Shown: positions 1,276 through 25,355 of the stretch, in pieces
Position numbering within the stretch: position 1 is the first letter of the stretch
How the letters are laid out: each line of letters starts with the position of its first letter
Position numbers and translations under genes: made by a program
DNA from: Microbotryum silenes-acaulis
Taxonomy: Eukaryota > Basidiomycota > Microbotryomycetes > Microbotryales > Microbotryaceae
Assembly: GCA_003665825.1 (NCBI GenBank)
Contig: QPFY01000012.1
Location: 558,001 to 622,000 of the forward strand
Direction: 5' to 3'
DNA: 64,000 nucleotides
The notes under the pieces: model-generated
What the model was told of the DNA's origin: nothing
Database searches by the model: none
What the model saw: only the letters and a program-made list of their open reading frames with translations

Positions 1276-3000
1276 TCATGGATACACTCCCCGAGGATCT
1301 ATCCGACGAGCAGATAGAATCTGCCATCGAAGCGGGAGTATACATACTGCAGAAGTATATTGAAAGGCGTCTGCAGCACTGCAACGCCAGTTGGTGTGTT
1401 GGGAATGAGGGTTAGGAATGGCGCGTTCATTGGTAATCTGTTTAGAAGCGCTCGTCTGTTTAGTGAAGCCTGGCGATGCGCACCAACCGTTGTCTTCTCT
1501 CCAAGCCGGACCCGAGACGGTGAGACCAGAGTGTGCGCCCGCGGCGTCGCAAATCCCAGACAGCTGGTACCCATCCTTCATGAGACTGGCAAGAGAGACG
1601 AGCTCGGCGGACAGACCCGGGACGAGAAGGACGTCGCGGAGCTCGAGAGGCGCGCCATTGGCGTCAAAGCGAAGGGTGCCCTTGCCGACAGCCATGGCGC
1701 TGGACTTGAATGCGCCGACTACGCGCACCCGCTCCGTCGTGAAAGGCTGGAAGTCGACCAAGAGATCCCGACGAGTGGTCATGTGGCGCGTCGCCCCCGA
1801 GTCGAGGAGGTAGCGGGGACCGTCGTGCAAGTACAGCGCAGAGACTTCGGTGTCAAGGGCGACCTCGGCAAAATAGTTCTCGTAAGAGTCGTCGTCAACC
1901 GATGGGTCGGGACCGTACTCAGCCACGAGCGCCATCGCGTCGGCCGCGCCGATGGAGATGTTGTGCTTGGCTAAGACGGCAACCCGACGACGGCACAGTT
2001 CGGTCGAGGGGACGGTACATTCGTCGCCAAGATGACCCTGCTCGTAGCATTTCCGACACTGCGACGGGCCCAGCCTCAGGCGACCGTTCTGCGCAACCCC
2101 GTGCGGCCACTTGTCCACGAGACCCGGTACCTTCGAAGCCGAGAGAAAACTGGACTTCGGTTTGCCTGACGAACGAGCGGGGCGCCTGCGACGACCCTGA
2201 GTCTTCGCCGCGAGGGCTTCGGCGACGTCGGTGCCGGAAGAGCGAGACATCGCCGCGCGACGAATCGCGCCCTCCACATCACTGAGCGACGGGATAGGGC
2301 CGAGGGCGTCGATAACCGTGACAATAGGCCGTGGCATCCTCGCCTTCAAGAGGTCCATGCGGATGCCTTCCGACAACGCAGGCGGCGGAACCCGCTTGTC
2401 AAACTCAGCTTGCGTGTACTTGACCCCGTCAATCTTGGCGCGCTGGTAGGCCTTGTCGCGGGAAACATGCGCGGCGTTGAGATCGACGAACAGCCGGTTG
2501 AAGCGCGACAACCAAGGGTCGAGAGGGTCTCCATCGACGTAGGCTTGGTATTGGAAAAGAGCATCGAGTTTCTCCGACCGCGCGAAGTCGTGGGATGCGG
2601 CGCCGAGATCCTTATCGAGGGCCGCCCACAGCTCGTGCGTTGGCTGGTCTGCGATGTGCGCGAACGTGGCCTCCCCCAGGCACACGAACAAGATGTTGCG
2701 GGCCTGCGCCAAGGCTTGATCGAGGTCGTCGACGTCATGACGGTAGTTCCGATGTTGTGTACGGAACGTGGCTACGTCGGCCACAGTGGAGCCACCCAGC
2801 GTACGGGTGAACTCGGACTGTTCGGGCTCGGGGCCAACGCTGAGTTCGGTCGTGACGTGCTTGAACCGGCCATCGCCCTCCAACACCCGTTGGAGTCGAT
2901 CCTTGGCCATTCCCCAATTTGTGGCGTCGACATTGCCATACAGGTCGCCCATAAGGCCGCGATGAGTGGCGGACCCGGAATCCACCGAGGTCGTAGCCAT
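1276..3000 (-). CDS. Truncated Copia-type Gag-protease polyprotein
   Basis: The frame runs from ATG at 3000 (MATTSVDSGSATHRG) to a stop at 1276-1278, 574 residues without interruption. Residues 1-250 are a retrotransposon Gag capsid-like domain (UBN2/gag-polypeptide style, with FVCLGEATFAHI, LWAALDKDLGAASHDFA and LDALFQYQAYVDGDPLDPWLSRFNRL). A CCHC zinc knuckle follows (CRKCYEQGHLGDEC). An aspartic protease has the LLDSGATRHMT active-site motif, then the flap and a second lobe ending near LVSLASLMKDGY. The usual GAG-pre-integrase and integrase never appear. Instead the frame reads through the left 115-bp repeat (1503-1389) into Harbinger DNA, giving a chimeric tail. The protein could assemble particles and mature itself but cannot copy or integrate DNA alone. 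Confidence 0.8.
   Translation of the reverse strand: MATTSVDSGSATHRGLMGDLYGNVDATNWGMAKDRLQRVLEGDGRFKHVTTELSVGPEPEQSEFTRTLGGSTVADVATFRTQHRNYRHDVDDLDQALAQARNILFVCLGEATFAHIADQPTHELWAALDKDLGAASHDFARSEKLDALFQYQAYVDGDPLDPWLSRFNRLFVDLNAAHVSRDKAYQRAKIDGVKYTQAEFDKRVPPPALSEGIRMDLLKARMPRPIVTVIDALGPIPSLSDVEGAIRRAAMSRSSGTDVAEALAAKTQGRRRRPARSSGKPKSSFLSASKVPGLVDKWPHGVAQNGRLRLGPSQCRKCYEQGHLGDECTVPSTELCRRRVAVLAKHNISIGAADAMALVAEYGPDPSVDDDSYENYFAEVALDTEVSALYLHDGPRYLLDSGATRHMTTRRDLLVDFQPFTTERVRVVGAFKSSAMAVGKGTLRFDANGAPLELRDVLLVPGLSAELVSLASLMKDGYQLSGICDAAGAHSGLTVSGPAWREDNGWCASPGFTKQTSASKQITNERAIPNPHSQHTNWRCSAADAFQYTSAVCILPLRWQILSARRIDPRGVYP
1389..1503 (+). repeat. 115-bp terminal inverted repeat, left copy
   Basis: Identical over all 115 bases to the complement of 3098-3212. 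It contains TGTTGGGAATG from 1397 and ends CTCTCCA, reminiscent of Copia LTR boundaries (TG...CA). Confidence 0.9.
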
Positions 3001-3055
3001 CTTGGATACGCGCTGCGTCTTTTCTGCGTGCGGATCTGTGCCTTGCGGCAATACA

Positions 3056-3065
3056 GACGCTACCA
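3056..3065 (-). other. Putative tRNA primer-binding site
   Basis: Minus-strand TGGTAGCGTC resembles the complement of the 3' end of initiator-methionine tRNA (TGGTAGCGCC in yeast), with eight leading matches. It lies between the LTR-like repeat and the gag start at 3000. Confidence 0.4.
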
Positions 3066-3097
3066 AATAAGAGACTGACGAGCGTGTAATCCAACCG

Positions 3098-3212
3098 TGG
3101 AGAGAAGACAACGGTTGGTGCGCATCGCCAGGCTTCACTAAACAGACGAGCGCTTCTAAACAGATTACCAATGAACGCGCCATTCCTAACCCTCATTCCC
3201 AACACACCAACT
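3098..3212 (-). repeat. 115-bp terminal inverted repeat, right copy (probable 5' LTR)
   Basis: Identical to the left copy in inverse orientation. In the gag direction it is followed by 32 nt and then the putative primer-binding site, as expected if the real LTR extends to about 3066. Confidence 0.85.
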
Positions 3213-4129
3213 ACGCCGTCTCCTGGACGAAACGGCCAAACGAAGACGAAATCTGTCCTTGCCTCAGCATATTTCGGTCCGAACAGGCCTCATCTTCTTA
3301 TGGAGCTCTTCAACAACAAGAATCCTGTTCGTATGAGTAACGCTCTTGGCCATGACACCGGCCTGCTTCTCCATCTTCGTGAAACGAGTGCTTATTCACA
3401 CCGATATCGTCCCCTCGAAGCACGTGACCGTCGAGGAGAAACTCGCTATGCTGCTGTACTGGCTGCGGGGCGCCGAGTCTTACCGCAAAATCGACGAGGT
3501 GTTTCAAAGGTCATTGGATACCATCGCTCGGTTAGTAGTTCCTGCTCTCATGTCCTACTTCATGACAGAACAGTTCCGCAGCTCTCCTCCTGACTCCAAG
3601 AGCGCTAGTACTCATGCACCTTCCTATTTGCGTCGCAGTCATTTGTCAGAAACACTTGGATTACTTGTGCACAGCGACCTCAGAAAGCTGTACCTTGTTC
3701 AGCCCACGGCAGACACGCCCACATCGAGCGTTATCACCGACAATCCTCAGTTTGCACGATACTTCGGCGATTGCATCGGCGCCATCGACGGAACGCACGC
3801 CCCCTGGTAATCAGCGGCCAACGATCCCAAACGATCGATCGATCGAAAAGGAGACAAGACACAAGACATACTCGCTGCTACGACTTTCGATCTTCGCTTC
3901 TGCTATCTTCAGACCGGCTGCGAAGGTTCTGCTCACGATCAGCAAGCGTGGGATTGGGCCCGCAAACGGGACCTCCTCATTCCCGAAGGCAAATACTACT
4001 AATCTTGGTGATGCAGGCTTTGCAACCAGCGAGGTGTGCATGACACCGTACAGAAACGTTCGGTACCACCTCAAAGAATGGCTACTGGGTAAAAAAAGGC
4101 AAGTCGCTGTTGTAGGACATGGGTTTTGT

Positions 4130-4530
4130 ACCTTGTACACTCGCGATGCCAATGGTCCGACCATGGACAAAGGTACAGGAGCGTGCTCCATGAACCAGAG
4201 AGCTTTCATTTGGTCTCGGCTACAGCTCTCTTTGCGCTCGGGATGTTGCTTCACCATCGCAGCAAAAATGATGTTCCAGGCTGGAAGCTTCAGAGGAAGC
4301 TCGGGCGACAGCATGTTGTTGCCATACAGATGGACCAAAAAGGTGGTCTGCGCAACGGACCAGTTCTCCGCTCGCGTCCCTCACTCGACTTGCTTTTGCT
4401 CTTGCCCGGGGCCCTTGCCTGTGTTGCTTTTGTTCTTTTTGCGCAAAGTGTTCGAATGAGCGGAGTGCTCAGAGTCGTTCTCGCTGTCGTCGTCGCTTGC
4501 TGAGTGTGATAAGGTGGATTTCTTGGCCAT
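4130..4530 (-). pseudogene. Myb/SANT-like protein of the PIF/Harbinger element
   Basis: On the minus strand an ATG at 4530 opens an acidic, Ser-rich N terminus (MAKKSTLSHSASDDDSE...). An in-frame TGA falls at 4381-4383, and the same frame continues with WSVAQTTFLVHLYG, LPAWNIIFAAM and SRDQMKALW, the three-helix pattern of a Myb/SANT-like DNA-binding domain. PIF/Harbinger elements normally encode such a protein beside the transposase, where it helps bring the transposase to the element ends. Its opposite orientation to the transposase fits. Either the TGA is a disabling mutation or it lies in an intron I cannot define. The 3' limit is uncertain. Confidence 0.6.
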
Positions 4531-7280: not shown

Positions 7281-7337
7281 AATGAACTAGTTCATTCATG
7301 TTCCCTAGGGAAAGAAAGGGAACGAGGTTTATAAAAG
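7281..7337 (+). promoter_or_regulatory. Two palindromes and a TATA box upstream of the repeat-peptide gene
   Basis: AATGAACTAGTTCATT (7281-7296) and TTCCCTAGGGAA (7301-7312) are perfect palindromes four bases apart. Eighteen bases later comes TATAAAAG (7330-7337), a good TATA box. A pyrimidine-rich stretch runs from about 7500 to the start codon at 7738, as in strongly expressed fungal genes. The palindromes look like sites for dimeric regulators; which ones is unknown. Confidence 0.5.
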
Positions 7338-7737: not shown

Positions 7738-8565
7738 ATGAAGTTCTCCCTCGCTTTGATCGCGGGCTTGGTTGCTGTGTCCGTCGCCGCCCCCGTTCCC
7801 GTTGCCGAGGAGCAGGTTAGTCGTTGGATCGAGGACCAACGGTCAACTGTACGTAATGGAAGTTGTGATGCTGATTAAGGGCCTTTGTGCGATGCTTTTG
7901 CTTCCTTGTCACGTGAAGGCACTCGAGCCTCGATGGTGAGTTTACCCCCTTGCACGCGAACTTCCGTCGCCCCTCCTTGCATCTCTCTCGCCTCTTGTTG
8001 ACCCCACGTTCACTCGCTTCCATCTTCGATCTATCTGCGGTGCTTTCTTCAGGGGACGCGTCGTCTACGGTTCCGAAGCCGCTCCCACGGCTAAGCGAGA
8101 CCAGATCGAACCCCGATGGTCAGTTCACGCTCTCTCCGACACTCGAGGATTAACAGGCCCTCATCACCTTAGATCACTCCGCCTGACCCAACTAGAATGT
8201 CTTTTCCTACCAGGGGTCGTGTCGTCTACGGCTCTGCTGCTGCCCCTACGGCCAAGCGAGACCAGATCGAGCCTCGATGGTGAGTCGATGTGTCTAAGTC
8301 TGCTTCGCGCTAGCTAGCAGTGGCCTTCAACATGTTATCTGACCCAACTATTATGTCTTTCCTACCAGGGGTCGTGTCGTCTACGGCTCTGCTCCTGCTC
8401 CCACGGCCAAGCGAGACCAAATTGAGCCTCGCTGGTGAGTTTGCGCACTCATCCTTTCCGCCTTAGGCCCCGGGTCTCATACAGGACCTCTTCTGACCGG
8501 TCATGGTCCATCCATTCTCTAGGGGCCGCGTTGTCTATGGCGCCGCTCCTACTCCTACGGCCTGA
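7738..8565 (+). CDS. Secreted Kex2-type repeat-peptide precursor, one repeat per exon
   Basis: Six exons are proposed: 7738-7815, 7919-7935, 8053-8118, 8214-8279, 8369-8434, 8523-8565, encoding 111 residues. Exon 1 encodes a signal peptide (MKFSLALIAGLVAVSVAA) and a short pro-segment PVPVAEEQ. Exon 2 is 17 nt. Exons 3-5 are each exactly 66 nt and encode GRVVYGS-x-A-x-PTA-KR-DQIEPRW. Exon 6 ends the last copy with GRVVYGAAPTPTA and TGA. All four inter-repeat introns split the same Trp codon (TG|G), so every repeat exon can be lost or duplicated without a frame change. Cleavage after Lys-Arg would release three 20-residue peptides, each DQIEPRW-GRVVYG plus a variable Ala/Pro/Thr tail, and one N-terminal variant. 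No Cys and no CAAX box are present, so it is neither a cysteine-rich effector nor a basidiomycete lipopeptide pheromone. Similar architecture is known for yeast alpha-factor and Ustilago Rep1; the sequence itself I do not recognise. Confidence 0.82.
8053..8434 (+). repeat. Tandem exon-intron duplication inside the peptide gene
   Basis: Three 66-nt exons (8053-8118, 8214-8279, 8369-8434) are near-identical. The 3' ends of the introns before the second and third share CTGACCCAACTA, then TGTCTTT and CCTACCAG (8183-8213 and 8339-8368), so exon plus intron was duplicated as a unit of about 155 bp. Confidence 0.85.
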
Positions 8566-10407: not shown

Positions 10408-13400
10408 ATGTCTGGTCATGGCGAACCCCGACCTACGACGGCTGCACAGCGCGGGTCCAGTGCCCCCGTCTCGATGGACCATCATCGTTCGAAGGTGGAG
10501 GTCGATATGACGGCGCAAATGACCGGTGACGATGGAGACCCCGATTCAGGCATGTTCTTGTTCATGCCGCCATTCCAGGAAGCTACAGAACCGATTGTCT
10601 CTGGGCAAACTGCGGCGTCTCCGCTTCCCCTTGACCAGGCGCGTGTCGCAACTGCCCACGAGTCAATGTCTGCGGTAGACGTGCAACCACTATCCGCCTT
10701 GTCAGATCCCGACTCGACGATGTCACCGGCTGCTGCGTATGCCCTTGCCGCCCAGAATGGCGCCCTCGACGGGAATCTACGGCCCGCAACCAGCTATCGC
10801 CAAGGGTGGACCAAGCCCGAGATGCCGGATGGCCGTTTTGCAGAAGGAGAGTACGAGGAATCCCGAGACATCCAATTTGGAGAGTCACGCCGGACGAGCG
10901 AAGGCACCCACGAAATCGGCAAGCCTTTCCAATTCGCCACCGAGCGACAAATTCCCCCCGGCACGGCGCAATCTGCATCTCCGTTCGCATATCGACTCTC
11001 AACAACAGCTGTCCAGCTGACCGATTTAGGCGGCGACGGAGGTCCAGGACATGCAAGTGATGACGATAAGAGTCCCATCGGAGATTTAGAGTTCCCGGTC
11101 CGTCGTCACTTGGAGGAGGAGGAGGAGGAGTACGAGAACGATGATGAAGATGAGGATTCGCCATATCCGGAGGTCCGAGCCAGCGTTTCAAACTACGACG
11201 ACCCCACCACGCCCTGCGTCACGTTCCGAATCATTCTTCTCGGCTTCCTCGTCACCATCCTTGTCAGTGCGGCGAATGCGTACCTCTACTTCCGCTATCC
11301 CGCCCCCTTGATCACTCCGATCGTCGTCCAGCTCATCACGTACCCCGCGGGGAAGTTCCTGGCTTGGACGCTGCCGACGCGCGAGTTCAGGTTGCCCAAG
11401 ATCTGCTCCAGAATGGGATTGGGCGACGAATTCAGTCTCAATCCGGGTTGGTTCAATATCAAGGAGCACACCGTCCTTGTCATCATCGCAAACGTCGCAA
11501 CTGGGCCAGCCTACGGTCTCAACTTCATGATCACAGCAGAGAAGTTCTATGACATCTCGTACAGCTTCGGCTTCGACATTTTGTTCATCCTTACGACCCA
11601 GATGGCGGGCTTCGGTGTTGCGGGCTTGTGTCGTCGTTTCCTTGTATGGCCGGCGGCGATGATCTGGCCGCAAAATCTCGTCTACTGCACCTTGCTCAAC
11701 ACTTTGCACGCCGAAGACGAGAATGAACCCGGAGGAAGGGTCTCGCGATTTCGCTTCCTGACCTACGTGCTACTCGCTGCTTTCTGCTATTATTTCCTCC
11801 CTGGTGCGTATTCTTCTTGAATTCTGCTCAATTCTGCGCCGTGCTCATAGCCACTTCATTGATTCTGCGGACAGGGTTTCTCTTCCAAGCACTCTCGGCA
11901 TTCTCCTTCATTTGTTGGGCTGCTCCCAGTGAGTGACGCCTACACTCGAATATGGCCAGGGAACTCTATGCATTTGCTAACTCCGCCGTTCATAGAACAC
12001 CTGATTGTAAACCAGCTGTTTGGCGTCAATTCAGGACTCGGTGAGCTGCCGGATACCACACTGTATTATGAACGACGCGATGGTTTCGGTGCTGAACTTG
12101 AATAATTTGCTTGCAGGCATGTCCGGGCTTACCCTTGACTGGGCACAGGTCTCGTACATTGGTTCACCGCTTGTCATTCCTTGGTGGGCAATTGTCAACA
12201 TCTTCACGGCCTTCGTAGTCGCTTTTTGGGTCCTAGCGCCAATCTTATACTACAACAATGTGCGTGAACGGTCGTGCATTCATACCTATCAAGGAGTTAT
12301 CACTTACGTTCAGTCTTCTTCGCAGGTATGGGACAGCGCCTACTTGCCCATCTCGACCTCCTCCGTCTTTGACCGATTTGGGGCACCTTACAATACTTCT
12401 ACTGTCATCAACAAGGCCACTCTCTCACTGAACTTCGAGGCCTACCAAGCTTATTCGCCCGTGTATCTTCCCATCACCTATGCCATCTTCTACGGGGTCG
12501 GTTTGATGACAGCCTCAGCGCTCATCGTTCACACTGCCTTCCACCATGGACCCGACATTGTTCGTCGGATCAAGGCGTCCACCATACAAGATGACGACAT
12601 TCATATGAAGCTCATGCGCGTCTACAAGGAGGTTCCCGAGTGGTGGTACCTTATCGTAGCCGGTGTGGCCCTAGGGTTGTCGATTTGTGCAGTCGCCGTA
12701 AGTCTGAAGTACGAATGAGTAGTTTCGGTCGCAAGGAGTTGGCTACTCACCTCGATTTGGCTTGCGCAGGCATTTGATACAAGGATGCCCGTGTGGGGAG
12801 TGGTACTTGCTCTTGCGCTTTCGACGCTCTACACCATTCCTGGAGGATTTGTCTATGCGCTGGCCAACGTGGTGGTAAGCTGGAAGCACAAGCCTGCCGG
12901 TGCGGTGCTCGCGCTGATGGACGCCTGTCTTCTCTCAGATTTCAATCAATTTGGTCACACAAATTGTCGGGGGTTATTTATTTCCTGGGCAGCCTTTGGC
13001 CAACATGGTTAGTGCTTAGAACTTGCTCAGTTCCCATCAAGTATTGACCTTCCGCCCACCAGATTTTCAAAACATACGCTGCGCAATCGCTCAATGTGAC
13101 GCTCGCTTTTGTTTCGGATCTTAAGCTGGGTCATTATCAGAAAAGTAGGTCCACGATCACGCTTTTGGCAGATGTGGATGTTCCTGATCTCCGTTTTTTT
13201 TTTGTCCCGCAGTTCCACCTCGCATAACGTTTTACGGTGAGTGGTTATTCGAATGTAATTTCCTGCCACGATGCTGACAGTGGTTTTTATTCGGCCCGCA
13301 CGTAGCGCAACTTTCATCGACATTCCTGGCCTGTTTCGTCCAGGTTGGAGTGAAGCGACTACTTGTCTCAAACGTTCCAGACTTTTGCTCGCCAACTCAG

Positions 13401-14236
13401 GCGTCGCATTTGATCTGCCCTGGAGCACGAGTGTTTTACTCGTCGTCCATCGTATGGTAAGGGTAACCATACCAGGCCATATCACCGTGGCAAATGCTGA
13501 TGCTTCCGTTCACCCACTCTTCAAGGGGACTCATCGGACCACAGCGCATAATTGGCGTAGGGGCGTATTACTCGAAGCTACTGTGGTGGCTGTTACCCGG
13601 CGTACTTTTGCCGATTGCTGCGTGGCTTGCAGCACGGCGTTTTCCGCGCAGTTTCGCGCCTTTGATCAACTTCCCGGTCGCACTGGTTGGTGAGTGACAC
13701 AATCAATGGTACAGGCTTATCGCGCTTCAGGTTGGACTGACCGAACTTCGAGCCGATGTGCAGGTATCCAACTTGTCCCTCCCGCTACTGGAATCAACTA
13801 CGCATCGTGGTTCCTGGCCGGCTTCGTCTTTCAGTATCTCTTACGTCGTCGCCGATTCTTATGGTGGTCCAAGTACAACTTTGTATTGTCAGCCGGGCTC
13901 GATAGCGGTACCATCATCGGCGGCATCGTCATCTTCCTTGCCTTGGTGCTTCCAAAGGGCGGGACTATCTGTGAGACACGTCCTTAGTCTACATGCTTGC
14001 TTCGCAGAGCACCGGCGCTGACGCTTCACTTCAAATGCACTTTTTTTTGGTACCACCTTCCAGTCGTTGATTGGTGGGTTGTGCGGTCGCTTCACTTTTG
14101 TCTTCCTCGGTTCTGACCCACCCTGCTTTGTGTGTACAGGTGGGGCAACACGGTGTTCACGAATACGCTCGACTTTTTGGGCAACTCTTTCAAGGTGCCG
14201 CCCGAGGAAGGATTTGGGCGAACGACGTGGAATTGA
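10408..14236 (+). CDS. OPT-family oligopeptide transporter 1
   Basis: Fourteen exons give 972 residues: 10408-11803, 11875-11928, 11996-12040, 12117-12259, 12326-12697, 12770-12874, 12939-13007, 13063-13144, 13213-13236, 13306-13456, 13526-13689, 13764-13970, 14064-14073, 14140-14236. After an acidic, disordered N terminus of about 250 residues comes the OPT entry motif DSPYPEVRASVSNYDDP, then about a dozen membrane helices. Family blocks include NPGWFNIKEH, LVWPAAMIWPQNLV, VNQLFGVNSGLGMS, SPLVIPWWA, KIPPR, PPATGIN and DWWGNTV near the C terminus. OPT proteins import oligopeptides of about 4-5 residues or longer, or glutathione, with protons. The 10-nt microexon (14064-14073) is required to join ISF-VDW to WGN and is flanked by good splice sites. 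The ATG at 10408 follows a probable 5'UTR intron. It is the first gene downstream of the peptide precursor. Confidence 0.9.
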
Positions 14237-14772: not shown

Positions 14773-17700
14773 ATGGCCCCGCGACCGAGCACGAGCCACT
14801 CTGACCGCCGCAACCTCGACCACGGCGTTGGTAGCTACGGCCACAGTGAAGATGACGACATGCATTCGGGGTCGGATGACGGGATGTTCTCCTTCGCTCG
14901 ACCGTCCACGGCGGATCAGCCGACTCGCTCCATCCCGTTCGGGGTGCCTTCGCACCCAAGCTCACCTCCAACACCCGACACCGTCACAGTTGCCCCTGAT
15001 GGCAGCGCACGCTCCACTCCGCGAAAACAGCTCAACTTTTCACGCGAGCACGACGAGGGCCTCGCCCCTTCGGATCGAACACATCAGGGGCCACCGCGAC
15101 CTTCGACGGGCAGCGTACCGCCAAGTGCGGGGTATAGGCTTCCTCGTAATGATATCGTGTTCGACAACGCGACTTTCTGCGTAGATCTGGGAGGTCGGCT
15201 GCGGGTTGGGTACCAAAACTCGGACTCGGAAGAGTCGTTGTCCGGTCACCACGGATTCGGGTCGTGCACATCCACCGGCCGCAGGTGCGACACGGAAGCC
15301 TCTTTCCAGTCAGAGTCACACGACGGGTCTCAGGTCGGATTGAACCCATTTGGCAAGAGTGTCAATCCGTCGCGCTGGGGAAAGTCAGACAGACAAAACT
15401 TTCGTTTGGAGAACATCGATGTCCATCCGAACCAGCCGCATGCGTCGAGCTCGTACGGCGACGGTAGCGACGACCACCTCGCAAAGGTCGTGCAAGTGAG
15501 CACTGACGCGGCTTCCGACAGTGGAGATATCGAAGAGGACTCACCCTACGCTGAAGTCCGCGCCAGTGTCTCCAACTGGGACGACCCCATCATTCCATCG
15601 CTCACGTTTCGGAGTTGGTTCCTCGGCCTGACCCTTTGCATCTTGCTGGGTAGTGCGAATACGTTCCTCGCTTTCCGATACCCCTCAGTGAGTCGATTAG
15701 ACTGCACCTATTTGAGGCTGCACCAGACTTACAGAAAGAACCTGGCAGCCTGCGATCACTCCTCTCGTCACCTTGATCGTGGCATACCCTCTCGGGAAGC
15801 TTTTGGCGATGTTGCTGCCGATCAAGGAGTGGTCCATTCCTCGATGCTTACGGCTTGGGACGACAATAAGTCTCAATCCTGGTCCGTTTTCCCAGAAGGA
15901 GCATGCGGTGATCGTCATGATGGCCAACGTTGGATTAACCCCCCCGTAAGCCTAAGAGTGATGCTTGTTAGACGTACATCTAGCTCGATCATTGCACATC
16001 CACGTGAACTGATGCCAGCCCCCGCTCCGGCCGATACCCAGCTACGCGCTCAACTACTCTGTGGCGTCCGAAGTGTTCTACAAGATCAAGTACAGCTTTC
16101 AGTTTGATTTCCTGCTCGTTCTGAGTTCCTGCATACTCGGGTTCGGTATCGCGGGCTTGTATCGCCGGTTCCTCGTCTGGCCGGCAAGTTTGCTTTGGCC
16201 GCAGAATTTGCTCTTGGCAACCCTCATCGCGACTTTTCACGCGGAAGAAGACGAGGAGCCAGATTCAGTGGGGATCCCTCGACTACGAGTGTTCACGTAC
16301 GTCATCGTGGGTGCGGCAATATGGTACTGGATACCAGGTACGCACTTCTCATGCGAGGGGCACATCTTCCTCCAACTAGCTGGACTGATTTCACTACCTC
16401 CCGTCCATCCGTGAAGGGTACATCTTCCAGGGCCTCTCCGCTTTCTCTTTCGTCTGCTGGATAGCTCCAAGCAAGTGCTTAATACGCTTCCACTTAATAT
16501 AATGCTTTCAGCTTGAGCTGATCCTCCCCCACCTCGATGATGTCTCCCACAGATAACGCGATCGTAAATCAGCTGTTCGGGGTCGACACGGGACTCGGGA
16601 TGTCTTTGCTCACCTTCGACTGGGCTCAGATCGCCTTTATCACCTCACCTCTTGTCATCCCGTGGTGGGCGATTGCCAACATCTTTGGCTGCTTCGTGGT
16701 AACCAACTGGATCGTCGCGCCGGCCCTGTACTACAGCGGCGTGTGGTCGACGTACTACCTCCCCATATCCGCAAGCGCGGTATTTGATCGGTACGGTCAG
16801 ATGTACAATCTCTCCAGAATCTTCAATCAACATGAGGCGACCATAGATGCTGCCGCATACACTGAGTATTCGCCGCTCTTTCTCACCTCGACCTACGTGT
16901 GCGCAGTCGGCCTCGCCCTTGCTCTTCTGCCGGCAGCGCTGACCCACACGGGGATATACCACGGCCGAGACATCTGGGCCAAGCTACGGGGGCGCCAGAC
17001 CGAGCGGGAGGATATACATAACAAGCTCATGAAGTCCTATCCCGACGTTCCGGACTGGGCCTACGCGTCATTCGCGGCGGCGGCGCTGGGACTGGCGATG
17101 CTCGCCATAGGTGTAAGTGTTTCCCAGTATAGTTCTGGTGTGGAGCGGTACTCTCGCGCGGTTCTGACTATCTACGGGGAGTCCTCAGTTATGGCCTACT
17201 AGAACGCCTGTGTGGGCAGTGCTGATCGCATTTCTGCTGGGATGCCTCGTTCTTCTCCCCGCCGGACTTGTGTATGCCATGAGTGCCACCCCGGTGAGTT
17301 CCCAGGAGTTACCTCGAGCTGGTGAAGTTAAATCAGCTGACCATGTTGCCAAGTACTCGAACAAAGCTTCAAGTCAATGTTCCGAGCGAATTACTAGCGG
17401 GGTACATGATGAAGGGTAATCCATCGGCGAATATGGTACGCCGCCGAAGCAAAGTTTAGGAGTTGGGATCAATCCCAGACTCTAATCATTCACGTACCAC
17501 TCGCAGCTGTTCAAGATTTACACTATCACCACTACCCAAGTGGGACTCAGCTTCGTACAGGACCTCAAATTTGGACACTACATGAAAGGTCGGTTCAAGC
17601 TTTCTCTTCTTAGGAGGCTCTCCTGAAACGGAAGCCAAAGGCTCACCTGGCGGACTTGTGCGAGTTTGCAGTTCCCCCCCGAGTCACCTTTCTCGGTAAG

Positions 17701-18768
17701 TGATCATCTATCTTCCATGATATTTGCTCAGTTCCACTGAAAGAGAGAGATCATCAAACAGTGCAAGTCGTCGCCGTTTTTGTCACTTGTCTTGCGCAGA
17801 TCGGGGTGAAGCGATGGCTGGTTGCCAACGTGGAGGACTTTTGTCAACGAGGGCAGAGTGCGCTCCTCGTTTGTCCAACTACTCGCACCTTCTACTCGGC
17901 GTCTATCATATGGTGAGAAAGGAAGCACATGATTCGGGGTGATCCTATCGCATCTGCTAACGCGCAAAATCACACCGTATAGGGGAGCTATCGGTCCTTC
18001 GAGACTGTTTGGACCGGGGAAACAGTACAGCCCGTTACTGTTTTGCGCCTTGGCCGGCGCTGTTGCCCCCCTTCTCCCTTGGATGTGTGAGAAGCGGTGG
18101 CCAAGAAGCTGGCTGGCCTATGTTTCTCTCCCGGTGGCGATGAACGGCGCCCTCGCCGTCACGAGCGCGAACGGAATCAACGTGAGCTCGTCTACCCCTT
18201 GGCTCTTCGTAATTGTCTTTTTGCAGTACTGACCCGAGGCGCTGGGTGTCTCGGAATCGTAGTACTCGTCCTGCTTCATTGTGGGCTTTGTCTTTCGTAA
18301 GCCACAATATAGAGCAGTCAGATCCTTCACTCTTCGTGATCGACCCGGCTGATGCAACTACACACCTGCAGAATACTTCTTGCGCCGTCGGCACTTCTCA
18401 ACTTGGTCCAAATACGTATACATCATCTCGGCAGGGCTCGACTCGGGGACCACGTTCAGCGCGCTCATCATCTTTTTCTCATTGATGCTACCCAAGAACG
18501 GGCAACTTAGTGAGTGTTGCCAGCGTACGGGAGGCAGGGAAACTACAGCAAGCTCATTGACGATCCCTCTGCCACCTCATCTTGATGGTTGAAGCACTCG
18601 ATTGGTACGTGTGGGCTCTCTCGAGTGACCAAAAATCGAATCGGCAAAGCTAATCCAAGAATCTGTTCGTCTAGGTGGGGGAACAACGTCTTCAAGAACA
18701 CTGCCGATTGGGCCGGTAGATCGCACCGGGACCCGCCCCCTCAAGGCTTTGGTCCAGATACGTGGTAA
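14773..18768 (+). CDS. OPT-family oligopeptide transporter 2 (tandem paralogue)
   Basis: Fifteen exons give 975 residues: 14773-15687, 15749-15945, 16042-16337, 16417-16470, 16553-17112, 17189-17293, 17367-17435, 17507-17588, 17672-17695, 17762-17912, 17983-18181, 18263-18296, 18372-18509, 18595-18604, 18675-18768. The N terminus is again long and Ser/acidic-rich, then DSPYAEVRASVSNWDDP opens the OPT domain. The same blocks as in OPT1 follow (SLNPGPFSQKEHAV, LVWPASLLWPQNLL, VNQLFGVDTGLGMS, SPLVIPWWA, VPPR, NGIN, DWWGNNV). The 24-nt and 10-nt exons are at the same positions as in OPT1, proving common origin. OPT2 lacks the OPT1 intron after the LVG segment and has two introns that OPT1 lacks, at GIN|Y and FQ|Y. 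The fourth intron appears to start with GC (GCAAGT at 16471). Confidence 0.88.
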
Positions 18769-18902: not shown

Positions 18903-21726
18903 TTACGATCCCATGCGTCTACCGGTCAAAGCTCGGAATGCCTGTCTTTCCATCTCTGTCTGCACTTCCTTGATTGAAAGCAGCCGCCACCCCTCCTTTA
19001 CCGACCGACCGGCCTTACTCTCAATTGCTCGGCTGAGCTCTCCTTCCACGTCCTTGCCCGAAGCGAGGTCTACGGCCGCGCCACCTGTCGGACTGGCGAA
19101 CAAAAAGTCCGGTAGGGTGGAGGCTTTCTCAGCGGCGATGATGATGGTAGGTGGACGCCGGGCGTACAGTCTCGGGTCTGAGAACGACGAAATCGTCGAG
19201 GCTTGCAAAGGTGCATGGTGCGGGTAAGGCACGCTCGGCGTATGTGACCTTGAGAGCGGTTCAATAGAGGCTGCGCGATGAGTCGTTGCAGATCGAGGGG
19301 AGGGAGCGACGATGGACTCGGCTCGACCAGCCGTGTTTGAGCCGGACGGTGTGCTTTCGCTTTCGCACGCATAGAGGTGCACCCACCGGGCTCCAACCAT
19401 GTCCAAAGCTTCGAGAACCTCGGCCAAATCCTTGATGCCCAGACCCACGAGCAAAGCCGAGGTGTGCACTCCGACGGCGTTGATAGGGCTGAGGTTTTGT
19501 GTGATGATGTCGGCCAGCGCCAGCACTCGGACGTTTGTGTGCTTGTACCACCCTTTTGGTATCGGTGGTTCATCGTAGCTCGTCGGCTCGGAGCAAGCTG
19601 GCACGACGAGATCGATCCAGCTGCTTGCTTTTGCGGGAGGGAGGACTTGGTCCGACGGGCTCTGCGTGCCGGCTCGGAGGGCCTTGCGAGGGGAGAAAAA
19701 CGCCCCGCCAAAGTCGGTTTCGGTTTCGCGGAGAGAGAGACGGTCTTCGACAACGAAGGTGTACGGTAGACCAAGGTGGTGCGCCTCCCGCGAGAACGAA
19801 TCGGCGATAGCGTGGGACGGGACGAAGAATGTCTTTTCAAGTGTGAGACCGGACAAGAAGAGGGCTTGCTGTGTTTGAGCGTAGGTCAATTGACCTGGAG
19901 CTGCCTTGCCAGGAAGAAGCGGGTGCGTGACGGGAGAGAATACTGGGTTGAGAAAACGAGAGAGCTGACCGCCCTTGCCGAGGTTGATCGCAAGCAGAGG
20001 TATTGTCCGGTCGACCGATTTAAGAGTCGAGACCTTCGCGCGGAATTTGAGTAGCTCGACGTTCGATTCGAATGATGTAGGAGTAGAGACAAACTTAATG
20101 ATATCGACACCGAGTCGTGCCGCTCGCGAGTACTTGTCCACCATCTCTGGGGAGTCCCATTTCCATGCGCCTACGCGATCGTGGTCAGCCCCGAGGCACT
20201 GCGTTGCCGCCCCTCGCAACGCAAGTAGTCTCACGATCTCTGCATCTGGTAGGGACAATTCAAGATCGACATACTCGGCACCCAGCTTGAAGCCAAGTTC
20301 GACCAGCGCCAGATACTTTTCCATCAACTCCTCGGTCTCGAGGTCTGGAAATTCACCCCCCTGCGATCTCGTCCGTACGGTGTACAGAATTGGGAGCGGC
20401 GAGCACCGCCGCAAGTGGCCGAAGCAAAGTGTCACGAAGTGAGGTGACGGCATTTGTGTTCCCCCCTTGCCATTTGATCGAGCATTGTGTGAAGTTTCCG
20501 GAGCAGGAGACCCTCCACGCGAGTCTGGCGGCGTTTCGGGCAGTGACTGCCGCAACGTATCCACGCGCAGCTCGATCACATCGACACCACCGGCGACTTT
20601 GCGTATGGTCTCGCTCGAAACGTTGAGCAGGTTGGGAAAGTTGAGCGCCACAAAGCTTGTCCTCTGGCCCTTGGCACCGCGCCCCATCTCGCTCTCGCAG
20701 GCGCCATACCCTCCATACTCTCCCGAGCTAGGGCCAGGGATGGGAGATGGTCTGGGGCCAGGGATGAGCGGGACGTGGGACGAGGCGAGGCCAAAAATGG
20801 AACGCAGCAGCCGAACAAAGGCGGTTTCGACGTGCTTCATGAGGAATTGCGGCGATGGCGGTGGAGGATATGCCGTGAGAGAGACAATGGTGTGGGAGCA
20901 GAGGTCTTCAAAGTAAGGTGTCCTTCGACTCCACACGACGCGAATCTCCTCGCCCCAGGACGGTCTGAAAGATGAGGCCGAGTCGTTGGTCAGCGGGCGC
21001 AAGGACATCAAAAGGTGGGCCGAGATAAAGCTTGCCTCGCGTTTTCGTCCACGAGATAGCGAATCGTCTCCTCCTTGTCCCTGACGACGTGTACGATCGG
21101 ATGGCCTGACGCTCTGAATTGTCGCAATGCCGAGCGGTTCTCCTCGCGTTCGACGACGCCTCCTCCGCACGCGATGACGTAGTCACGTGGATATTGGTGG
21201 AGCAACTGCTTGAAAATGGCCGTCTCCTTGTCACGGAAGTCGGCCCAGCCGCGAGCTGCGGGTGAGAAACCATCATGTGGGGGCTCAGCCAGGATCCGGC
21301 GGATGCCGCGGAGGAAATCGTTACTTTCTCGCAAGCGGCTGGATGGCCCCGAGGTGGTGCATATGAGTAAATCTATGGTGAACATTGCTTACCTTTGACA
21401 AAGTCGGTGATGGGTCCGTGCAAGGTCTGGAAGGCTGAGTCGGCATCGATGAACTGGCGCCGGAGGGAAGTGGCCGCGATAAGACCGAGCGTAGTCTTGC
21501 CGACTCCACCTAATCGAAGGTGATACGATTGTCAGTCAAAGGTACACGTCTGGTCGCACTCGAGCGTCTCCCGTCGCGGATATTTCTGCCTCTGCCCTCG
21601 CACGAAGCCGACGCTCGCTGCGAGCATGCATGACTTGAGCTTGCGAGGCCGATCACTGGAATAGCACTCACGCATCCCAATCAGAGCGATGGTGGCCTCT
21701 GCATCGTACAGCGGTGCGTGAGGCAT
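18903..21726 (-). CDS. Quinate-repressor-like AROM derivative (shikimate-kinase, dehydroquinase and shikimate-dehydrogenase-like domains)
   Basis: Exons on the minus strand are 21726-21672, 21509-21393, 21327-21036 and 20964-18903, 841 residues. Residues about 10-155 are shikimate-kinase-like with a P-loop split by intron 1 (IGMRGVGKTT), FRDKE and ACGGGVV. About 255-480 are type I 3-dehydroquinase-like; the catalytic His and Lys seem kept (GADHDRVGAW, VDIIKFV). About 490-800 are shikimate-dehydrogenase-like (NPVFSPVTHPLLPGKAAPGQL), but the substrate motif normally reading SPISHSRSPxLHN is degenerate (VPSHAIADSFSREAHH). AROM itself would be about 1,550 residues with two further N-terminal domains, all absent here. 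This domain set matches the fungal quinate repressor (QUTR/QA-1S), which binds and inactivates an activator when quinate is absent. The third intron starts with GC. It is divergent from a Zn2Cys6 regulator, supporting a regulatory pair. Confidence 0.82.
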
Positions 21727-22167: not shown

Positions 22168-25100
22168 ATGGTCGCCAGACCGGCGTCGGCGTCGTTGGGG
22201 CCGATTGCTTCGACCTCGAGCTCGTCGTCCGCAGCGGTCGTACCACCGCACCAGCACCCGCCGCCCCACTCGCCGCCTTCGGACTCGGATGAGCGCGCAC
22301 CCAAGAAGCAGAAAAGGGTCACCAAAGCCGTAGGTACAACTTCGCTCGCTGCAGAGAACGCTTGCTGCGCTGACACGCTACGCTCTCGCTCTCGCGGATG
22401 CTGTGCCCCACCACCGTGATTCCATATCCGTCCTGTTCATTGCTACAGTGCGATCAGTCAGTCTGCTTGTGCACTGTAGCAAGCTGATTTATGATCTCAC
22501 ATCGCTGAAACCGTATCAAACCCGGCGGAATAGATGCCGACGACGACGCGTCAAGTGCGAAGCTTTCCCGAATGCCCCCTCGATTGACTCGCCGTGTGTG
22601 ATCTGCACCGAGCAAGGCTCCGCCCACGAATGCACCTTCACACGACCGACTCGTAAACGAGGTCCTCAAGCAGGTCTCACCAAGAATCTTGCAGAGCGCA
22701 TCACGGGTCTCGAACGATTCGTCGTAAGTGCCCCCTCTCAGTTCAGAAAAACTCGGCTCGCTCATCGACCGATCACATGCCCTGTGCGCTTTATCTCAGG
22801 GGTACTTGCTCGCGGTCGAAGGAGAAGAGATGCTCATGGCCAAGTACCGAGCTTTTTTCGATCAAAGTGATTCGAGCACCGACGCTGCAGCTCAGATGGC
22901 CGCTTGGAACCGATCGCAGCTGTCCCACTTGCTCGAAAACCTCGTCATCAGTCCCAACACGTCATCGGGGCCTGCGATTCTCAAGCAGGAGCAGCAACGC
23001 CTCGATTCCGAACTAGGAGTACACGATGTGGTCATGGACGGATCCAGCCCCGCCAACGGTCGACCTTCGACTCCAAGCCTGCAGGACTTGAGCCCGGCTG
23101 CTTCTGCTTCGACTCCTGGGACCGCCACTCGCGTCGGATCGTTCGACCCCCGCTCTCGGTCTGCAGCGTCGCTGGACGCGTCCGATACGTTTGCGAATAC
23201 TTTCAATAGCCAAGCCAATGCACCTGACTCTGGTTCGGCCGTGGCGGACGCGAGCGAGTCAGCTTTACAAACGCTTGCACACGCGGCGATACCCGACTAT
23301 TTCTTTAGCGACCCTTTCCAGGGTGGGTCCGGGGGGCTCAAAGGTACCGGCACGGAAGGCGATGGATCGATGGCGAGCCTTTCATCGAACGTTGTGCTTT
23401 CACTCCCCGACGAGGCGATACGCAATCAAATGCTCGATGTCTACTTTCACCAAATTGTGCATCCCACCTTACCGATTCTCGACAAGGCGCAATTCTTCAG
23501 CTGGTCGGCCTATCTTCCACCCACTGATGCTGCGACCTCGATCGCCGCACAAGCACTACCGGCTGAGCTATATTTGAGCGTTTTTGCCGTTGTGGCTCCC
23601 TATCTGCACTCGGATTCGACACACTCTTCAGAGACTTTTGCAGCGGCTGCGCGCTTCTACCTGTACTCTTCGATGAAGGACCCATCGGTCGAAACGGTTC
23701 AAGCTTGCACGCTTCTCGCTATTGCCGACTGGGGACTCAACGAAATGTCGCGCGCATGGATATTAAGCTCGCTCTCCATCGCACTCTCCATCACCTTGGG
23801 GATGCACCGGCGGCAGCAGCACGGTTCGCTTGCGCCCAGTCCGGCACGCCTGCGGACTTTTCATGCGGCAATCATCGTACACACGCTCCTTTCACTCCGC
23901 CTATCACGCCCCCCAATCATCAACTGTGAGGACTATGACGTCCCCTTACCACCTAGCGAAGGCTCGGAAAACTTTGAATTGTGGAGTCTAGGGCACAACG
24001 CCAACCATCTCCGGGGCGAATACGCACTCGAGCCGATAGCCACAATTGCCCGGCGACCAGGTGCGGTCCGTTCATCGACGCTTCTCCTCTTTTCAAAGAC
24101 GGCGAGCTTGTGCACATTGGGGCTCGCTGTCCTGCGTTGGAGCCTTCGACCTGCTGCTGGAGGGGATCACGGCGAGGCCGACCGACAAGACCTGATCAAA
24201 GCGCTCGTGGCGTGGGAACGAGGGTTCCCGCCGGAGTTGATGATTGGTGAGCCGTCTACGCGCGGCACCGATCGGGTCAAAGAGCGCTCAAGGTCCATCA
24301 TCGAGATGCACATGACCTTGCACTCGCTGTACGCTCGCCTCTCTCCCTCACAAGAGGCCGTTGCTGAGGGGGGACGCGCATTCTCATATGATCCCGCACC
24401 AGAATCCATATCGATGCTGTTACAGCTCACTACGACGACTAGGGACTTGTTCACTTATCTGCGAACGATGCCACTAGTCGAGGTGGCGCTCGACGTGCTC
24501 GTCAAAGCTGGTCTGGGGGAAGAACCTTCGGTTAGCGGCGCCTACGAGGAGCTTGGTCGAGTACATCGCTTGGTGCGGCGCGAAGGGGCCGTTTCTCGAC
24601 GTTCTGCTCCGAACAGGGCAACTCCGTTGTCGACCGAAGGAGGCTACGACAGCCCGATCGATGCTTTTGTGCAGATGCACCCGACGTCACAGGTCAATCG
24701 ACCACCGCACCCGCTGACCTCATCCCTTCACGGCACAACTCAGCCGGCTAAAGACTCTTCCCATGCCTCACTGGCCAATGCCGAGGCACTGTCAGTCTCA
24801 ACGGAGCCTTTCCAAGCGTTCTTATCGTACTCGGACGTACTGGGCCCGTCCGCGACAGCCTCGACTGTGCTCGACTTTGGATCATGGGATCAATCTGATC
24901 TCCTGGTCTCCCTCGGCCTCGTCTCTGACCCGACGGCGGGCTCCCAGGCATGGCAACCTCCACCTTCGAGCGATATGTCGGGCTCTCACCATGGTCAACA
25001 CCTGCCCGTCTTGGACGAGTCGAAGCCAATCTCTCTCCAGTCGATGGCGACGGCCGGAGCAACAGAGTTTCCGCACTCCGGCCTGAACGACGGTGAGGTT

Positions 25101-25355
25101 GGCCCTGGGAACAGCCACACCAGCATAGGCCACACGACACCACCTGGAGGTGAAGGGAATAATGCGGCCTTCATGTTTGAACACTTTGGGCAAGGGACGG
25201 ACTTGTTGGCTAGGTGGTTGGATCGAGGCAGTTGGGCTACTGGTTCGTCAGGCGAGCCGATTCAGGGGCTGTCGACGGGAGACTCGGAGCAAGATCTGCC
25301 TTCGAACACGGGAATGATGCTCGACCCTTCGAGTGGCGAGGGCATGATGATGTGA
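22168..25355 (+). CDS. Zn2Cys6 fungal transcription activator
   Basis: Proposed exons are 22168-22329, 22462-22475, 22534-22723 and 22800-25355, 973 residues. The zinc cluster is assembled across introns: a 14-nt microexon supplies SACAL, then CRRRRVKCE, then PCVICTEQGSAHECTF, giving C-x2-C-x6-C...C-x2-C-x6-C. Without the microexon the first Cys is missing. An acidic, Ser-rich linker leads to the fungal_trans domain (MLDVYFHQIVHPTLPILDKAQFF, QACTLLAIADWGLNEMSRAWI, ALSITLGMHRR), followed by a long low-complexity tail. It is divergent from the quinate-repressor-like gene. In Aspergillus and Neurospora the quinate activator and repressor genes lie in one cluster, so a QUTA-like role is possible. 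An Aro80-like regulator of aromatic catabolism is an alternative. The first two exon boundaries are the least certain. Confidence 0.75.

Follow-up and report, generated by a model that had tools for sequence, protein, structure and literature searches.

Kex2-processed repeat proteins (KEPs) are widespread, with 7878 examples reported from 1345 of 1461 strains (PMC7329392), and their functions are largely unknown (PMC9769878). The published rule for recognizing them calls for at least four fragments after cutting at KR or RR, at least three of which are similar, and the number of repeats generally varies between species that share a KEP motif (PMC6339444). Both this kind of precursor and changes in its copy number are already known. 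Some KEP genes have introns, since a methods passage of PMC9769878 describes intron-less KEP sequences amplified from cDNA; this paper mentions the words exon or intron once, and both words are absent from the main texts of PMC6339444 and PMC7329392. A KEP gene with one symmetrical exon for each unit was not found in a limited literature search that covered material other than supplements.

We describe here a gene, found once in the genome of a probable Microbotryum species, apparently an anther smut, which we hold with good confidence to encode a predicted secreted KEP built from exon cassettes. It lies in a 64-kb window, the whole stretch of DNA that was analysed, and all positions below refer to this window unless a contig is named. 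Six exons at 7738-8565 of the forward strand, read and spliced by script, join into a 336-nt coding sequence in a single frame that specifies a 111-residue precursor. The splicing reproduced the gene as the sequence-only reading had drawn it, including the six exons, the four units, the three different tails of the 20-residue peptides, the shared split Trp codon and the 66-nt length of exons 3 to 5. The features of the locus are as follows.

7330..7335, forward strand: TATAAA motif some 400 nt before the start codon, a consensus match only and a possible promoter.
7738..7815, forward strand: exon 1, 78 nt, with the start codon, the probable signal peptide and APVPVAEEQ.
7816..7848, forward strand: optional in-frame extension of exon 1, in which donor GTACGT at 7849 replaces GTTAGT at 7816, adding VSRWIEDQRST.
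7919..7935, forward strand: exon 2, 17 nt, the head of unit 1, ALEPRW up to the TG of the split Trp codon.
8053..8118, forward strand: exon 3, 66 nt, the tail of unit 1, Lys-Arg and the head of unit 2.
8183..8213, forward strand: 3' end of intron 3, apparently duplicated with exon 4 (repeat family D4).
8214..8279, forward strand: exon 4, 66 nt, the tail of unit 2, Lys-Arg and the head of unit 3.
8339..8368, forward strand: 3' end of intron 4, matching that of intron 3.
8369..8434, forward strand: exon 5, 66 nt, the tail of unit 3, Lys-Arg and the head of unit 4; its nearest relative is exon 4.
8523..8565, forward strand: exon 6, 43 nt, the tail of unit 4 (GRVVYGAAPTPTA) and the stop codon TGA.

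The precursor consists of a hydrophobic leader followed by ALEPRWGRVVYGSEAAPTA-KR-DQIEPRWGRVVYGSAAAPTA-KR-DQIEPRWGRVVYGSAPAPTA-KR-DQIEPRWGRVVYGAAPTPTA. Mean Kyte-Doolittle hydropathy over residues 3-17 is 2.43, and the leader is a probable signal peptide ending, as judged by eye, near residue 17-18. The last three units are 20-mers that follow Lys-Arg, each being DQIEPRWGRVVYG plus a variable 7-residue tail (SAAAPTA, SAPAPTA or AAPTPTA). Three Lys-Arg sites and repeated units after a leader give the gene the form of a Kex2-type repeat precursor, as proposed, and separation by Lys-Arg holds for the three 20-mers but does not extend to unit 1 (ALEPRWGRVVYGSEAAPTA), which is continuous with the leader and has no Lys-Arg before it. 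Counted by hand, the precursor has three KR sites and four fragments, namely the three 20-mers and the related unit 1; the repeats make up about 54% of the protein (3 x 20 of 111 residues, against a required coverage of at least 15%), and the signal peptide that completes the definition is recognized on hydropathy alone. By the published rule, applied by hand and with predicted cleavage, the precursor is a KEP.

All five introns are GT-AG, measuring 103, 117, 95, 89 and 88 nt in order. Introns 2-5 split the same Trp codon in phase 2 (TG before the intron, G after it) and intron 1 is in phase 0. The peptide register is thereby permuted relative to the exons: each 66-nt exon carries GRVVYG, the tail and KR of one unit (its C-terminal two thirds and the dibasic pair) followed by DQIEPRW (the first third) of the next. 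The earlier picture of one unit per exon is right as to the symmetrical 66-nt cassettes and needs amending as to their content, since every such exon completes one peptide and opens another. Five skipped forms were tested. Those lacking exon 3, exons 4-5 or exons 3-5 stay open and in frame, as had been predicted for exon loss, and both forms lacking exon 2 lose the frame. Because exon and peptide boundaries differ, dropping exon 3, exons 4-5 or exons 3-5 gives intact chimeric peptides. If intron 2, 4 or 5 is retained, translation stops directly after EPRW; a retained intron 1 would be read for 20 residues before a stop, and a retained intron 3 shifts the downstream exons out of frame. A plausible branch-point sequence, CTGAC, is found in introns 3, 4 and 5 at 30-31 nt from the 3' end; introns 1 and 2 have less exact matches, at 48 and 55 nt respectively. 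Use of the alternative donor at 7849 would give a 122-aa precursor and shorten intron 1 to 70 nt, a length in line with the neighbouring oligopeptide transporter (OPT) gene, whose 13 introns measure 55-93 nt; a gene model from M. intermedium, described below, carries VSRGLEGSMDRL where this extension sits.

The repeat array is more than chance. A scan of the 64-kb window for 40-nt direct repeats (at least 72% identity, spacing 50-400) returned 4 rows, every one in the peptide gene, and the four copies align in register, at least 76% identical to the reference copy over 42 nt (range 76-100%). Among the four 30-nt stretches encoding EPRWGRVVYG, all 8 variable sites are synonymous third positions. 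Random single changes in this core would alter the protein in 73.6% of cases, which puts the chance of 8 synonymous sites out of 8 at 0.264^8, or about 2e-5. Replacements among units are confined to the head of unit 1 and to the tails. Since every variable core site is synonymous, the peptide core looks constrained, and a selected peptide is the simplest reading of it.

The DNA of the peptide gene has a single match in the genome (29,850,648 bases in 88 contigs), and three protein matches all fall within the gene itself. A degenerate pattern for the core, allowing up to 2 mismatches, hit the genome 34 times against 19 for the reversed control. Hits with one mismatch numbered six, being the four units, which mismatch the pattern because an intron splits their Trp codon, and two other places. 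Protein searches covered 5.8 billion proteins at lengths of about 43-194 residues, a range below that of precursors with at least 8 units. A search with the four-unit form (E cut-off 1, 2483 candidates) and one with the two-unit form (E cut-off 10, 12 candidates) led to the same lone homologue, BQ2448_5923 of Microbotryum intermedium (79 aa, E 3.9e-26). Neither search returned a peptide model from M. saponariae, though its OPT orthologue is present. No Pfam family scored above cut-off for the precursor or for BQ2448_5923, the best sub-threshold match being DUF4124 (E 0.0018, 18.9 bits against a cut-off of 22); a PDB search of the precursor gave no match at E 1, and the string WGRVVYG is absent from the main texts of the literature searched, figures and supplements aside.

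As modelled, BQ2448_5923 has two units and one KR, a count that would fail the KEP fragment rule, and it shares the core and 25 of the 26 residues of the exon 1 product. Its first unit also opens with ALEPRW and its last tail also closes with PTPTA; because of these shared ends the first and last units of the two genes seem to correspond, and the middle two seem to be extra in the window gene. The homologue search had been set beforehand as a test of the exon-cassette idea, and it delivered one relative, a gene model, with a different number of units. Copy-number evolution as first proposed gains from a homologue with two units rather than four, with the reservation that this count comes from a doubtful gene model. 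The model of the adjoining M. intermedium transporter gene, BQ2448_5922, has two insertions, each some 22-23 residues long, at precisely the places where its orthologue in the window has introns (12041-12116 and 13237-13305), and for this reason the M. intermedium annotation seems to keep introns as coding; it may also skip exons, which would make the two-unit count an under-call. M. intermedium gene models in general call for care, given the apparently coding introns of BQ2448_5922. Two units fit the predicted change in copy number if the model, possibly incomplete, is taken as it stands.

Two OPT genes follow the peptide gene on the same strand.

10408..14236, forward strand: first OPT gene, 14 exons and 972 residues, hand-spliced; PF03169, E 4.1e-181.
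14773..18481 (approximate extent), forward strand: second OPT gene; PF03169 at C12:573737-576481, which is 15737-18481 of the window, and in the open reading frame (ORF) at 16522-17199.

Pointing to a Microbotryum species as the source of the window, the first OPT protein is 95% identical to its M. saponariae orthologue and 85% identical to that of M. intermedium. In the latter species the transporter and the peptide bear consecutive locus tags (BQ2448_5922 and BQ2448_5923) and a contig of 1,446,674 bases is listed for both, so we infer that the two genes are adjacent there too. Across the genome, 48 OPT matches fall at ten places by our own grouping, with two tandem OPT gene pairs (C7:170871-176649 and C12:569215-576481). 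OPT homologues stand two tags apart, with one tag between, in Sporobolomyces ruberrimus (JCM16303_000242/000244) and Rhodotorula pacifica (JCM10908_003554/003556), and consecutively in Sporobolomyces carnicolor (JCM3766R1_004946/004947). For M. lychnidis-dioicae, up-regulation late in infection is reported for four OPT-domain proteins, with enrichment only at p < 0.1 (PMC4469406), and the OPT gene set is reported as enriched in infected stages (PMC5919739). Rusts and anther smuts are described as having an expanded OPT group (PMC9023891). Upstream of the peptide gene the window holds a Pol_BBD domain of a retrotransposon polyprotein (1279-3192, reverse strand) and two ORFs without a Pfam match (3337-4380). 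Beyond the transporters, a protein with a type I 3-dehydroquinase domain (18906-21182, reverse strand) has in its vicinity a gene whose product includes a fungal-specific transcription factor domain (22728-25352, forward strand), an arrangement resembling the repressor/activator pair of ascomycete quinate use.

Intron 3 resembles intron 4 at its 3' end: a 28-nt alignment scores 39, which none of 500 mononucleotide shuffles reached (maximum 24). The copies containing exons 4 and 5 agree at 93% of positions over 83 nt. Both observations are most simply explained by duplication of a stretch comprising exon 4 and the intron 3 end before it. A Trp-codon intron was probably present before the units multiplied, given that introns 2-5 interrupt one and the same codon. 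The same fact, one target codon hit four times, could be taken to favour an introner-like origin, in which introns were inserted independently at the same site of each repeat in a formerly intronless array. Introners resemble one another, and here, the ends of introns 3 and 4 excepted, the introns are no more alike than shuffles in 9 of the 10 pairs; this disfavours an introner origin, which we regard as the least probable of the alternatives weighed here. Duplication of exons with their introns is the better fit: peptide number seems to change by gain or loss of whole exons, and the exon-cassette interpretation is supported, with the caveat already given on the two-unit relative.

What the peptides do is a separate matter, for which we favour, as a guess held tentatively, a fungal signal over a wall, host-directed or defence peptide. 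An effector or surface peptide acting on the host plant or the hyphal wall, as reported for MiSSP8 and Rep1, is the strongest competitor but in our view unlikely. Species of Microbotryum parasitize plants (PMC4469406), Le Marquer et al. have raised the idea that conserved KEPs act on the host (PMC6339444), and MiSSP8 and the water-repellent Rep1 peptides derive from Kex2 repeats (PMC7329392); against this, the sequence carries no pointer to a host target, and the peptide is charged and has 20 residues, compared with 37 for Rep1 peptides (PMC6339444). Another possibility, improbable on present evidence, is that the product is an autocrine peptide, perhaps trimmed outside, that enters the cell through the OPT encoded 1.8 kb downstream and has its effect there, in the manner of Qsp1 and Opt1; in Cryptococcus neoformans, Qsp1 action is reported to need Opt1 (PMC7537855). 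The OPT gene is the next recognized gene downstream on the same strand, with the second OPT behind it and no stop-to-stop ORF of at least 150 aa between it and the peptide gene, and the 85% identical orthologue has the tag next to the peptide in M. intermedium. Adjacency, however, is linkage and not function, as congeners usually keep gene order; the 20-mer is longer than the 11-residue Qsp1, the OPTs may merely serve nutrition, and the nine OPT places elsewhere showed no such array in their 18 outer flanks, each of about 10 kb. The scan behind the last point took in 20 stretches (197,720 bases), two of them at the peptide locus, covering outer flanks as distinct from the DNA between clustered OPT genes; it gave 9 repeat rows in 5 of the 20 stretches, and inspection by eye in six frames of the stretches of 5 of these 9 rows revealed no spliced Lys-Arg units, leaving recurrence of the array at other OPT places unsupported. 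Still less probable is a precursor of a modified cyclic peptide, a dikaritin RiPP of ustiloxin type with cross-linked Tyr/Trp in the core. A KEP architecture with an aromatic-containing core is of the type described in PMC7329392, but UstYa (PF11807, DUF3328) has 0 matches in the whole genome, a weak test since 0 of 14 control genomes matched either, and a UstYa-type domain is absent from the nine window proteins or frames scanned, which represent part of the window's genes.

Mating-type linkage was rejected as a lead: contig C6 carries the STE3 matches and one of the two Homeobox_KN matches, C10 carries the other, and the window lies on C12. The signature of alpha-type pheromones, STE13 dipeptides XA/XP after the Kex2 site, is absent, DQIE following each of the three KR.

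Under the exon-cassette KEP reading, the precursor would enter the secretory pathway and Kex2 would cleave after the three Lys-Arg pairs, which a Kex1-type carboxypeptidase would then trim away. The genome has one P_proprotein (Kex2-type) match, and so a Kex2-type enzyme is probably present. The products would be four peptides, probably serving in extracellular signalling or interaction; three would be 20-mers that combine the invariant core EPRWGRVVYG with an Ala/Pro/Thr tail under loose constraint. The ancestral Trp-codon intron would make each repeat a symmetrical 66-nt cassette, so that units could be gained by duplication of an exon with its flanking intron and lost without damage to the frame, the direction and route of change being what we infer. 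A fuller scheme, in which exon duplication sets peptide dose over evolution, exon skipping sets it within the life cycle, and the adjacent OPT re-imports the product as an intracellular autocrine signal, appears very improbable as a whole.

The symmetrical cassette is a simple route to changed peptide number with an unbroken frame, and the neighbouring transporter suggests an uptake hypothesis. KEPs are mostly without known function, and two surveys of them worked, as described, on annotated proteins (PMC6339444, PMC7329392). Genes split into exons of 17-66 nt, or reduced to two units, could escape such annotation-based surveys, and exon-per-unit peptide genes are for that reason possibly undercounted.

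Compared with known systems, the window gene shares with KEPs a signal peptide, near-identical units between Lys-Arg and a unit number that differs among species, and it is unlike the described KEPs in that each unit has its own symmetrical exon. SP7-like effectors and Glomeromycotina AGL proteins, considered as exon-per-repeat precedents, were rejected: as described, their introns number one or two and sit close to the leader or ahead of the first repeat, in place of one for every repeat. Ascomycete precursors of the alpha-factor type have Kex2 repeats in common with the window gene but carry the XA/XP STE13 signature after Lys-Arg, where the window gene has Asp-Gln. The Qsp1/Opt1 system of Cryptococcus neoformans is similar in pairing a secreted basidiomycete peptide with an OPT-family transporter, involved in the one case and nearby in the other; Qsp1 is an 11-residue peptide reported to be matured outside by Pqp1 (PMC7537855), whereas the window gene has Kex2-type repeats and, as its tie to the OPT, adjacency only. 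In animal proglucagon, related peptides were multiplied by exon duplication or triplication within one precursor gene (PMC8248487), much as proposed here; no homology is claimed, proglucagon being an animal hormone precursor with diverged peptides, and the window gene encoding near-identical peptides that are themselves split by introns.
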